DNA from: a virus | Length of the DNA: 64,000 bases | Direction: 5' to 3' (one strand) | IMG/VR virus record: IMGVR_UViG_3300046535_002009 | Coordinates: 1-64,000 of that record | Shown here: one piece after another, positions 10,837 to 18,198 of the stretch | Position numbering within the stretch: the stretch's first letter is position 1 | Layout of the letters: each line of letters begins with the position of its first letter | The notes under the pieces: model-generated | Databases searched by the model: none | Told to the model about the DNA's origin: nothing | Seen by the model: only the letters and a program-made list of their open reading frames with translations | Position numbers and translations under genes: made by a program

Positions 10837-12090
10837 CTACCTCGCGGCCGTGAAGTCGTGGGCCTCACCAGTGCTGGCGAGGACGGGCACGGTGCCGGTG
10901 TGCTGCTGGTATCTGCGGCAGATGACGTCGACGTACCGTGCGTCGAGCTCCACCACCCGCGCGGTGCGGCCGATGGTGTGGGCGGCGATGAGCGTGGAGC
11001 CCGAGCCGCCGAACGGTTCGTAGACCAGGCCGCCGGGGCGGCAGGAGTTCCGCAGGCCGGCGGCGACCAGCTCGACCGGCTTCGACGTCGGATGGGTGTC
11101 GTTGCGGGCGGGCTTGTCGACCTCGAAGACGGTGGTCTGGGCGTTGTCGCCGTGCCAGCGGTTGCCACCGCGGCCGAGCCGGCCGGACCCGGCGGGGGCG
11201 TCCGTGAACCCGTACAGGATCGGCTCGTGCCGGTAGTGGTAGTCGGAGCGGCCGAGGACCATCGTGTTCTTGACCCAGATTAGGTTCTGCCGGAACAGCC
11301 ATCCGGCGGCGCGGAACGCGGCTTCGAAGGTCGCGCGGGCGGTGTCGGCGTGCGCGACGTACACCGGGGCGCCCGGGCGCAGCGCCGCGGTGGCGACGGC
11401 GAACGCGCCGGCGAGGAGGTCCTCCAGGCCGTCGGCTCCGTCGTTCTGGATGGTGAGGGCCTGCTTCGTCTTGCCGACGTAGTCGACGCCGTAGGGCGGG
11501 TCCGTCCACATGCAGTCCGCGCGGTCGCCGTCGAGCATGTTCTCAACCGCGGTGATGTCGGTGGAGTCGCCGCACAGGAGCCGGTGCGGGCCGAGGTGCC
11601 ACAGGTCGCCCGGCCGGGTGCGGGGGTCGGCGGGGATGTCGGGGATGTCGTCGGGGTCGGTGAGCGCGGTGGGCGGCTCGTCGAGGTGGAGGAGGGCGTC
11701 GATGTCGGCCTGGGTGTAGCCGGTGCCGTCGTAGTCGCCGTCGAGGTAGGAGAGGAGCTCGGCCAGGGCGTCGTTGTCGTAGCCGCCGAGTTCGGCGGTG
11801 CGGTTGTCGGCGAGGTTGATGCGGCGGGCCGTGGAGTCGTCGCAGGTGATGATCTCGCAGCGGGCGCTGGTGTGGCCTTCGGCGGCGAGCGCCTGGAGGG
11901 TGTGGTTGCCGGCGAGGACGATGAGCGGGCCGTCAGGGATCTCGCGGGCGACGAGGGAGCGGTACTGGCCGTTGCGGCGCAGTGAGGCGCGGATCGCTTC
12001 GACGTCCCCGCGCTTGGCGTTCCCGGGGAACGGCGAGAGTTCGTCGAGCGGGACGTCGCGGGTGTGGAGGTAGGTGGCGGTGTCGGACAT
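10837..12090 (-). CDS. ParB-like/DNA N6- or N4-methyltransferase fusion
   Basis: A 417-residue protein with two domains. Residues about 10-100 are a ParB/sulfiredoxin-type domain (GNHTLQALAAEGH), and the rest is a beta-class DNA methyltransferase with DPPYGVDYVG and FGGSGSTLIAA in the permuted order, plus the VKNTMVLGRSDYHYRHEPILYG region. Such fusions are common in phages, where they methylate the phage genome to evade restriction. The ATG follows GAGGGGAG. Confidence 0.88.
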   Translation of the reverse strand: MSDTATYLHTRDVPLDELSPFPGNAKRGDVEAIRASLRRNGQYRSLVAREIPDGPLIVLAGNHTLQALAAEGHTSARCEIITCDDSTARRINLADNRTAELGGYDNDALAELLSYLDGDYDGTGYTQADIDALLHLDEPPTALTDPDDIPDIPADPRTRPGDLWHLGPHRLLCGDSTDITAVENMLDGDRADCMWTDPPYGVDYVGKTKQALTIQNDGADGLEDLLAGAFAVATAALRPGAPVYVAHADTARATFEAAFRAAGWLFRQNLIWVKNTMVLGRSDYHYRHEPILYGFTDAPAGSGRLGRGGNRWHGDNAQTTVFEVDKPARNDTHPTSKPVELVAAGLRNSCRPGGLVYEPFGGSGSTLIAAHTIGRTARVVELDARYVDVICRRYQQHTGTVPVLASTGEAHDFTAAR

Positions 12091-16070: not shown

Positions 16071-17660
16071 TCAGTTCTGGTGCTCCCAGGGCCATCTGGC
16101 GGAGCGGCCAGCCTCCAGGAGGGGGATCAGGCTGAAGGCCTGGTCGGTGAGGCCGCCGAAGGTGTGGCGGTTCGCGGCGCCGGAGGGACCGTGGCCGGCC
16201 TGGTACCCGGCGAGGTTCCAGGTGTAGAGCTGGACGTTCGCCGGGATCTCCTTCGTCGGGTCGCCGCCCCAGTAGCTGCCGGTGGCCTGCTCGTCGGTGA
16301 CGATGACGACGCGGTCATGGCCGCGGTAGTGCTGGCGTACGGCCGCGGCGGTTGCGGTGCCACCGAGGCTCCCGAACCGGTCGACGAGGCGGAGCACGGA
16401 GTCGCCGCGCTGGAAGGGCACGGCGGCCGAGCCGGTGCCGAACTGGACGAGGTCGGCGCTGGCGGCGCGCAGCGCCAGGGCGACGCCGAACACCGCGGCG
16501 GAGTCCGCTCGGTTGAGCTTCGTCTGCTGGCTGATGCCGTCGAACATGGAGCCGGAGCGGTCGATGAGGACGAGGGTGCGGCCGGGCAGGGACGGGACGT
16601 TGGTCAGGGAGTGGCCGAGGGCGGTCTCCAGGGCGTGGCCCCAGCGCAGGGACGGGGCGTGCTTGTAGGCGGCGAGGTACCGGAAGGGGAACTGGCGCGA
16701 GCGCCGGACCTCGGCGGGGTCGGCGATGCGGGCGCAGACCTCGGCGGCGACCTTGTCGGAGACGCCGGCCTGGTCGAAGTTCCGCAGGTTCCGCACCAGT
16801 GCCATCGTGCCCATGGCGGGGATGATGGCCTCCCATGCGGCGGCGTCCATGGGGCCCTGGAGCCAGCCGGCGAGGCGCTCCCAGGTGAAGCCGGCGCCGG
16901 CGAGGCCGCCCTCGGAGGAGACGAGGGTGGGGTCGAGGACGTAGGCACGACGGTCGGCGACCGGCAGCGCAGCGAGGGTGCGCTGCGCCTGGAGAACCGG
17001 CAGGGAGTCCGGGATGAGATCGACGCGGTTGTGCCGGGCGTCGATCGCGTGCCGGAACAGGTCGCCCTGCCACGCCTTGTCCGGGTGCGGCGCGGGGTGG
17101 GTGAGCTCCAGGACATCGGCGAAGCGGTAGCTCTTGGAGTCGCCGTCGTACTTCAGCAGCGCGCGCTCCGAGTAGAGGCGGCGGGCCGCGTCGGCGACGC
17201 CGCGCTTCACGGGCTGCGGGAGATTGCGGCCGTACCGGGAGGTCCAGTAGGCGAGGAACTCGCCGGGCTCGTCCGGGCGCTGCAGGACGGAGTTGATGAC
17301 CTGCCGGGAGTAGCCCGGGGCCTGGTGGAGGATCCGCTCGGCGGTGAACTCGGCGGCGCCGACCAGGGCCGCGGTGCGCATGTTGGCGTCGGTGCGCAGC
17401 CAGGAGAGGAAGGCGGAGGTCCAGGCGGGGTCGGTGGTGGCGAGCGTGCGGACGAGGCGCTGGAAGCGGTCGTCGCGGTCGCCGGCCTTCTCGTAGAAGG
17501 CGTCGTGGCCGACGGTGTTGGAGATGCCGAGGAGGAAGAGCTCGGACTTGGTGTCGCGGGCGTAGCCGGTGGCGCCTTCGGCGGTGCGCAGCGTCGGCCC
17601 GGTGGTGGTCACGGGCGAGGTCACGGCCGGGCGGGTGGTGGGGGTGTTGAAGCGGGACAC
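16071..17660 (-). CDS. Ro60/Rsr-family RNA-binding protein (TROVE plus vWA)
   Basis: A 529-residue protein of normal bacterial Ro length. The N-terminal about 340 residues match the TROVE HEAT-like ring (TDPAWTSAFLSWLRTDANMR, then GRNLPQPVKRGVADAARRLY). The C-terminal vWA domain has an intact MIDAS: D367-x-S369-x-S371, T435, D456. Ro rings bind Y RNAs on the outside and misfolded or 3'-ended RNA in the pore, and can tether PNPase. The GTG start follows GAGGGG. It lies 36 bases after three Y-like RNAs on the same strand. Confidence 0.9.
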   Translation of the reverse strand: MSRFNTPTTRPAVTSPVTTTGPTLRTAEGATGYARDTKSELFLLGISNTVGHDAFYEKAGDRDDRFQRLVRTLATTDPAWTSAFLSWLRTDANMRTAALVGAAEFTAERILHQAPGYSRQVINSVLQRPDEPGEFLAYWTSRYGRNLPQPVKRGVADAARRLYSERALLKYDGDSKSYRFADVLELTHPAPHPDKAWQGDLFRHAIDARHNRVDLIPDSLPVLQAQRTLAALPVADRRAYVLDPTLVSSEGGLAGAGFTWERLAGWLQGPMDAAAWEAIIPAMGTMALVRNLRNFDQAGVSDKVAAEVCARIADPAEVRRSRQFPFRYLAAYKHAPSLRWGHALETALGHSLTNVPSLPGRTLVLIDRSGSMFDGISQQTKLNRADSAAVFGVALALRAASADLVQFGTGSAAVPFQRGDSVLRLVDRFGSLGGTATAAAVRQHYRGHDRVVIVTDEQATGSYWGGDPTKEIPANVQLYTWNLAGYQAGHGPSGAANRHTFGGLTDQAFSLIPLLEAGRSARWPWEHQN

Positions 17661-17695
17661 AGGGGACCCCTCGTTGGGGAGAGGGGAGGCAAGCT

Positions 17696-17847
17696 GGGGC
17701 GCCCGAGGTCGAGGTCGGTGACGGGCTTGCAAGACCGCTGCTCTGTCCGATTGAGCTACCTCGCCAGCGTGGCTGGCGTGGGCGGGATTCGAACCCGCAA
17801 CCCGCGGTTCCGGAAGAAGTATCCGTCGCCTGCGCACCGGGCGCCCC
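17696..17847 (-). ncRNA. Y-RNA-like ncRNA C (YrlA type) with tRNA-like module
   Basis: The ends pair in a 10-bp stem (GGGGCGCCCG with CGGGCGCCCC). Just inside are the shared blocks GTGCGCAGG (5') and CTCGACCT (3'). Then come TACTTCTT, a T-arm (GCGGG-TTCGAAT-CCCGC), a 7-bp acceptor-like stem closed by CAC (CGCCAGC/GCTGGCG) and a D-arm (GCTC-9 nt-GAGC). The tRNA parts are in permuted order. This is the architecture of bacterial Y RNAs that mimic tRNA. It ends 36 bases before the Ro start codon. Confidence 0.8.
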
Positions 17848-17950: not shown

Positions 17951-18086
17951 GTCCAGAGTTCGAGGTCGGCTGAGGCAACGTAAGCGCTCTGGGCCGCTGA
18001 GCTACCGCCGGACGGACCGGCGGCCAGGATTCGAACCTGGGTCTCTCCTTTAGCAGAGGAAGTAACCCCGGCCTGCGCACCTGGAC
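17951..18086 (-). ncRNA. Y-RNA-like ncRNA A (YrlA type) with permuted tRNA-like module
   Basis: The ends pair as GTCCAG/CTGGAC. Inside are GTGCGCAGG (5'), CTCGAACT (3') and TACTTCCT. An anticodon-arm-like stem-loop follows (TTCCT-CTGCTAA-AGGAG, which would read GCU), then a T-arm (CCAGG-TTCGAAT-CCTGG), a 7-bp acceptor-like stem closed by TCCGT (CCGCCGG/CCGGCGG) and a D-arm (GCTC-AGCGGCCCA-GAGC). A TGTAGCGT box at 18101-18094 sits where an extended -10 would give a start near 18087. Confidence 0.8.
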
Positions 18087-18198
18087 GACGCTGACGCTAC
18101 ACCCACCACGGCGTCAACTTCGAGCGCATTTCCGCTGCTTACTACACTTGTCTCATCCGTCGGGAGTCCGCCTCCAGGATGGCTCGCCTCCGCATCGG

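Follow-up and report, generated by a model that had tools for sequence, protein, structure and literature searches.

The minus strand of a 64,000-nt stretch of viral DNA (the window), part of a 110,060-base virus record, carries an RNA, RNA A, whose sequence and relatives identify it as shaped like a full tRNA permuted between positions 26 and 27, with an anticodon arm of its own and a closed acceptor end. As judged from sequence comparison, RNA A represents a second architectural type among bacterial Y RNAs, and the matches place this type widely in phages and actinobacterial chromosomes. The anticodon-like loop keeps C32, U33 and matched letters at positions 36, 37 and 38 (U36-A37-A38 or G36-G37), and not positions 34-35.

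Architecture of RNA A

The preliminary description had proposed the order anticodon-like arm, T arm, acceptor 3' strand, TCCGT, acceptor 5' strand, D arm. The letters on the minus strand match this order, and the covariation in relatives recovers the arms. The elements are as follows:

17953..18088, minus strand: RNA A, class-1 Y RNA, permuted four-arm tRNA mimic (model R1, Rfam YrlA)
18081..18086, minus strand: basal Y stem, 5' strand GTCCAG, partner 17951-17956 (sequence, MFE)
18045..18061, minus strand: anticodon-like arm TTCCT-CTGCTAA-AGGAG, made of TTCCT (18061-18057), the loop CTGCTAA (18056-18050) and AGGAG (18049-18045) (sequence, covariation in relatives)
18024..18040, minus strand: T arm CCAGG-TTCGAAT-CCTGG (sequence; helix paired in 100% of cells in relatives)
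18005..18023, minus strand: closed acceptor CCGCCGG-TCCGT-CCGGCGG without a CCA end, made of the 3' strand (18023-18017), the closing loop TCCGT and the 5' strand (18011-18005) (sequence, covariation)
17986..18002, minus strand: D arm GCTC-AGCGGCCCA-GAGC (sequence, helix in the relatives' alignment)
17951..17956, minus strand: basal Y stem, 3' strand CTGGAC (sequence, MFE)

The loop letters of RNA A are C32, U33, G34, C35, U36, A37 and A38. The variable region, AGAC, lies between the anticodon arm and the T arm, and a TA spacer separates the acceptor 5' strand from the D arm. All four tRNA arms are present, since a separate anticodon arm precedes the T arm. The T arm, the closed acceptor hairpin and the D arm follow one another on the basal stem, as is characteristic of bacterial Y RNAs. 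We also looked in RNA A for the helix closing these three arms (the YrlA core stem) and found none of canonical geometry.

RNA A scored 130.2 bits (E 5.3e-34) against model R1, a match by construction because RNA A is among the model's own 39 sequences. Its score against Rfam YrlA was 25.2 bits (E 0.0036), which does not reach the gathering score of 69, and the YrlA alignment places an 11-nt insertion exactly at the anticodon hairpin. At default Rfam thresholds, the window returned no entry.

Genomic context and RNA B

The source phage infects Streptomyces-like bacteria. On the minus strand, RNA A is followed by a second Y RNA (RNA B) and then by the Ro60 gene:

17702..17845, minus strand: RNA B, canonical class-2 YrlA-type Y RNA (Rfam YrlA, model R1)
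17804..17808, minus strand: RNA B anticodon-stem 3' strand ACCGC (39-43), pairs with 17734-17738
17734..17738, minus strand: RNA B anticodon-stem 5' strand GCGGT (27-31), pairs with 17804-17808
16071..17660, minus strand: Ro60/Rsr ortholog (TROVE domain), downstream of RNA A and RNA B

The Ro60 assignment comes from a PF05731 match of 52.8 bits (cut-off 23; scored on the longer Ro60 frame 16071-17837) and from similarity to the phrog_850 RNA-binding protein (E 2.7e-53). A neighboring Ro60 (TROVE) gene is a further mark of bacterial Y RNAs that RNA A carries; together with the second Y RNA alongside and the kinship to YrlA, it bears out the earlier identification of RNA A as a Y RNA. Over the whole 110,060-base record, model R1 found RNA A and RNA B, and no third match.

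A search for a link to RNA repair found no RtcB in the 110-kb virus record; a scan of the neighbors of one Streptomyces locus (L078) yielded, apart from TROVE, a PLP enzyme alone. No sigma-70-type promoter was found near RNA A or RNA B, and the single terminator-like site (17922-17908) scored near chance. Elsewhere in the window, the minus-strand protein at 10837-12090 has an N-terminal part resembling ParB joined to a DNA methyltransferase.

RNA B scored 42.3 bits against Rfam YrlA (E 4.1e-8, under the gathering score of 69) and 81.3 bits against model R1. Its anticodon stem has canonical tRNA geometry: GCGGT starts one base past the D arm, and a 5-nt variable region lies between ACCGC and the T arm. 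The mouth of the Y stem stands in place of the anticodon loop, and RNA B has the helix closing the three arms that defines the YrlA core stem. The variable region was exactly 5 nt long in 82 of 96 class-2 modules.

Comparative evidence for the four-arm fold

Taken alone, RNA A leaves its fold unproven because the MFE z-score is only -1.22, with 20 of 200 shuffles folding equally well or better. In the MFE structure the anticodon hairpin is imperfect, and it is missing from the centroid. We therefore rely on relatives, which were collected around Ro60 from 37 viral loci and named phages, from 80 loci of actinobacterial genomes (mostly Streptomyces and Kitasatospora), and from 80 viral loci obtained via an alignment query that overlap the 37-locus set. 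The module search asked for the TTC[AG]A T-loop, an acceptor hairpin, GG in the D arm and, upstream, a motif resembling TACTTC; modules of other shapes escape it. This first set held 276 modules, of which 274 passed the motif filter and 253 were unique. The TACTTC-like motif is conserved at the module start, as the script requires; its TTC makes up the outer anticodon stem in class 1.

For alignment A2, 39 sequences were taken from 50 listed candidates. With no structure supplied, RNAalifold recovered the anticodon, T, acceptor and D arms and the Y stem from 39 class-1 RNAs, with kept double changes at 22 of 31 pairs. Standard pairs filled 96.9% of the cells in these relatives vs 76.6% after shuffling (none of 500 shuffles reached 96.9%), the covariation score was 0.547 vs 0.168 for shuffled alignments, and slid controls were 33-53% paired. 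In the acceptor helix, both sides changed at 6 of 7 pairs. The arm order of RNA A and the relatives' alignment thus uphold the earlier proposal of a permutation between the D arm and the anticodon arm with the acceptor closed.

The anticodon stem was also examined in two ways that keep loop and pairing apart. Selection by loop letters, ignoring pairing (TTCNN-CTNNNAA-NNNNN), picked 83 of the 253 modules; pairs 30:40 and 31:39 were standard in 165 of 166 cells, vs a mean of 103 and a maximum of 122 in 1000 shuffles. Selection by pairing alone gave a 7-nt loop in 97 of 152 hairpin modules, and any other length was found in at most 12. Class-1 modules with other hairpins exist, with loops of 3-10 nt, such as AACAACAACA in viral locus L040. 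The loose class-1 rule (135 unique modules) lets in some class-2 RNAs that carry TTC/GAA mini-hairpins; neither the fixed-register test nor the loop-letter test depends on it. We regard the comparative evidence for the predicted four-arm fold as decisive.

Distribution in phages and chromosomes

Of the 135 unique loose class-1 modules, 63 came from the 80 actinobacterial genome loci. Model R1 matched 83 of 199 genomes from the genus of a Streptomyces genome at E values up to 1e-18, a level (about 83 bits) that lies above the RNA B score and may still admit some class-2 RNAs. At 1e-10, 23 of 396 genomes of the phylum matched, tandem tRNA genes among them; weak R1 matches (about 50-73 bits) include such genes and were left out of the Y RNA counts.

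A second set, reached via the Ro60 of proteobacterial phages, comprised 80 further viral loci and five phage loci, and 51 of these 85 loci yielded 72 modules (66 unique). The pattern TTCNN-HTNNNRA fitted 33 of the 66 unique modules; at their two inner stem positions, standard pairs filled 65 of 66 cells, vs at most 49 after shuffling. Xanthomonas phage Olaya (L224) and Caulobacter phage CcrPW (L225) each carry two class-1 RNAs, with R1 scores of 98.7 and 88.3 bits and of 88.1 and 76.4 bits, respectively; their four loops are CUGUUAA, AUCUCAA, CUGUUAA and AUUAGGA. In the Vibrio, crAss001, Halogranum and Thermus phage loci (L226, L228, L231, L232), the script detected no module of any class and R1 gave no match at E 0.01.

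Several annotated phage genes overlap such modules. The tRNA-Arg(tct) of VanLee (L003, 4627-4698) and the tRNA-Ser(gct) of Alone3 (L004, 4710-4783) coincide with class-1-type Y RNA modules and are probably no tRNAs, as is the tRNA-Arg(cct) of GiJojo (L007, 5735-5809), a class-1-type module with an 8-nt loop. The tRNA-Pro(tgg) of Streptomyces phage Frankenweenie (L230, 1745-1835) overlaps a class-2-like module, and in Gordonia phage Trax two minus-strand R1 matches (L005, 4250-4395 and 4491-4618) overlap the small ORFs 93 and 91. Some deposited phage "tRNA" genes would then be Y RNAs, and tallies of the tRNA repertoires of phages are affected accordingly. Viral locus L040 has five Y RNA modules in a row upstream of Ro60 (1491-2341), bearing different hairpins, with a sixth candidate at 2182.

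Conservation of the anticodon-like loop

Among 95 seven-nt modules, C32 was kept in 86, U33 in 89, U36 in 77, A37 in 81 and A38 in 89. U33 and A38 are thus the most conserved loop letters, and the U33 and A37-A38 pattern noticed earlier in RNA A holds in its relatives. Position 34 varied (G44/C33/U13/A5), and so did position 35 (U39/A27/C19/G10). Consequently, the earlier statement that the loop reads GCU does not extend beyond RNA A: the relatives read GUU, GCU, CAU, GAU, CUU, UGU and others, and 34-35 change as fast as unconstrained columns. On the Ro60 tree (83 loci), parsimony counted 6, 3, 26, 27, 12, 10 and 3 changes at positions 32 to 38; the 44 bacterial loci gave 1, 0, 13, 11, 2, 5 and 0. 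The 13 and 11 changes at 34 and 35 in the 44 Streptomyces-type RNAs compare with 11-14 at other free columns. Diversifying selection on the anticodon was rejected on this ground, and there is no sign of an arms race at these positions.

The letter at 36 predicts that at 37. With the register fixed and U33 and A or G at 37 required, a design that tests this link alone, 114 modules gave U36-A37 in 92 of 92, C36-A37 in 8 of 8, A36-A37 in 1 of 1 and G36-G37 in 12 of 13. G36-G37 held in 7 of 7 cases in the actinobacterial type (90 modules) and in 5 of 6 in the proteobacterial-phage type of the second viral set (24 modules). Counted by distinct loops, G37 followed G36 in 9 of 10 and other letters in 0 of 20, the modules being related and not independent. 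Other tRNA calls in the same loci were looser, with 13 G37 and 10 A37 among 24 distinct G36 loops. Part of the U36 excess among the modules comes from shared descent: when each distinct loop was counted once, U36 occurred in 12 of 30 Y loops vs 24 of 88 from other tRNA calls.

These preferences resemble the requirements of two position-37 enzymes. Besides A37, t6A needs only U36 and A38 (excerpt of PMC3814370), and in E. coli t6A37 is found on all 13 ANN-reading tRNAs (excerpt of PMC4132733). The CUGCUAA loop of RNA A presents U36, A37 and A38 within seven nucleotides, as expected of a t6A37 substrate. TrmD needs G36 with G37, and its minimal substrate is a continuous D-stem/anticodon-stem duplex (excerpt of PMC5372744); the 26/27 opening of the class-1 module interrupts this continuity. 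Formation of t6A37 requires U36, A37 and A38, and that of m1G37 requires G36 and G37; these are the letters that the loops keep, so t6A would be expected at A37 of RNA A. The C37 found in 4 of 44 bacterial loops on the tree argues against the t6A reading, because C37 could not take t6A.

Proposed role

RNA A looks like a bait or docking site for enzymes that handle tRNA and not like a working tRNA, because tRNA-like positions are kept and the codon-reading letters drift. The interpretation we favor, with confidence about evenly divided, is that RNA A is a Ro60 Y RNA in the form of a complete permuted tRNA, a module shown to position-37 enzymes, and that its A37 is probably modified. By analogy with known Y RNAs, Ro60 would hold the basal Y stem, and the permuted module would be offered to tRNA-handling proteins, above all to position-37 enzymes. 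The t6A synthase would act on the CUGCUAA loop of RNA A, and TrmD on the G36-G37 relatives. RNA A may in this way bind anticodon-arm enzymes or titrate them while decoding nothing; bait, tether and sensor are all possible roles. DusA and TruB are known to modify YrlA, and it is through Y RNAs that Ro60/Rsr is tethered to effectors, PNPase among them (excerpt of PMC8394870).

The preliminary description had suggested a decoy for anticodon nucleases or tRNA-modifying enzymes. Competition for modifying enzymes gains support, as the kept letters are those of position-37 enzymes, and a decoy for an anticodon-specific nuclease is weakened by the freedom of 34-35. In its nuclease form, which we think unlikely, a free loop would draw off host nucleases that cut tRNA anticodon loops. 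YrlA has been suggested as a possible competitive inhibitor of a Salmonella anticodon nuclease, and the fMet tRNA (CAU, A37-A38) is cut there between two adenines (excerpt of PMC7790460). Moreover, 17 distinct Y loops, which account for 71 of 97 seven-nt modules, recur letter for letter in other tRNA calls of the same loci, and some viral loci hold several Y RNAs with different loops, as L040 does with its five. Against this stand the free but not accelerated 34-35, which indicate neither a fixed decoy specificity nor an excess of change; YrlA, which lacks an anticodon arm in the Rfam model, is described as uncut in Salmonella (same excerpt); and the architecture occurs in chromosomal Streptomyces loci, not in phages alone. 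A phage-only defense device as the sole role was rejected because chromosomal Ro60 loci carry class-1 modules. A broad nuclease decoy, or one for an enzyme blind to 34-35, may be envisaged. It is also doubtful, if a little easier to credit, that the hairpin is purely architectural, completing an L-shape for docking of Ro60, PNPase or another effector, with the loop as a generic U-turn. The prominence of U33 and A38 is what a U-turn needs, and the tethering of Rsr to PNPase is a precedent; nevertheless, a generic U-turn leaves unexplained that 36 predicts 37 and that 36 is kept beside free 34-35.

ARAGORN calls a tRNA-Ser(GCT) at 18014-18083, and permuted tRNA genes of algae and archaea are processed into tRNAs (excerpt of PMC3978253). 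That RNA A is, or matures into, a functional tRNA is nonetheless highly improbable. The Rfam tRNA model gave no match at 18014-18083 up to E 1. The acceptor is shut by a loop of 3-8 nt (TCCGT in RNA A, hence no open end capable of carrying CCA), and just 8 of 95 class-1 acceptor loops start with N-CCA. Bacterial Ser identity requires a large variable region (excerpt of PMC9976931), whereas 92 of 97 modules have one of 4-6 nt. Of 328 ARAGORN calls in the loci, 59 fall on Y RNA modules and span many amino acids. We ruled out a functional tRNA-Ser(GCU) on the closed acceptor, the missing CCA, the lack of an Rfam tRNA match and the short variable region. Tandem tRNA genes can stand as an origin story, and such an origin has been proposed for permuted tRNA genes (excerpt of PMC3978253). 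They match R1 at 57-73 bits in Streptomyces genomes, and the tandem tRNA-Asn genes in L200, L201, L204 and L221 (near 1547) look permuted to the covariance model; such genes may have given rise to the module, and they produce false R1 matches. As a complete explanation, however, tandem genes are scarcely credible: the stem covariation and the slow 32, 33 and 36-38 vs the fast 34-35 show selection on the arm.

More broadly, and as a tentative view that we hold to be less probable than the role proposed for RNA A, these RNAs could form a second widespread Y RNA class of permuted tRNAs, with loops kept for position-37 enzymes and freed from decoding; as a sponge, sensor or tether, they would bring Ro60 particles into contact with the machinery of tRNA modification. 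If true, a phage or a host could use Ro60 particles to adjust t6A/m1G modification or to protect anticodon loops under stress. In the anticodon arm, the letters for "modification identity" (32, 33, 36-38) would be distinct from those for "codon reading" (34-35). A sharp prediction follows: the Ro60-bound, non-decoding RNA should carry t6A37 or m1G37.

Comparison with known systems

Published work describes bacterial Y RNA as a circular permutation that can be superposed on tRNA (excerpt of PMC11472068), and the extra anticodon arm is what the present analysis sets beside this relationship. Our literature search on Y RNA, Ro60 and YrlA, which did not reach the core YrlA structure papers, found no Y RNA with an anticodon arm. 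An earlier description of an anticodon-arm subclass in those papers is possible. The 2018 YrlA structure paper reportedly analysed further bacterial Y RNAs too.

With YrlA (RF02553; structure 6CU1), RNA A has in common the Ro60 neighbor, the T arm, the closed acceptor, the D arm and the basal Y stem. In YrlA, however, a helix encloses the three arms, whereas RNA A is without it and carries the 11-nt insertion as a separate anticodon hairpin. The usual YrlA module corresponds to a tRNA opened inside the anticodon loop, and RNA A to a complete tRNA permuted at 26/27. Like RNA A, the permuted tRNA genes of algae and archaea place the 3' half before the 5' half and probably arose from tandem copies. 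Those of C. merolae are joined at 20/21, 37/38, 50/51 or 59/60 and mature to tRNA (excerpt of PMC3978253); RNA A differs in its break at 26/27, the lack of CCA and the Y stem. The tRNA-like domain of tmRNA shares tRNA mimicry and tRNA-type modification with RNAs of this kind (excerpt of PMC8394870), but tmRNA accepts alanine and includes an mRNA portion, whereas the acceptor of RNA A is closed.
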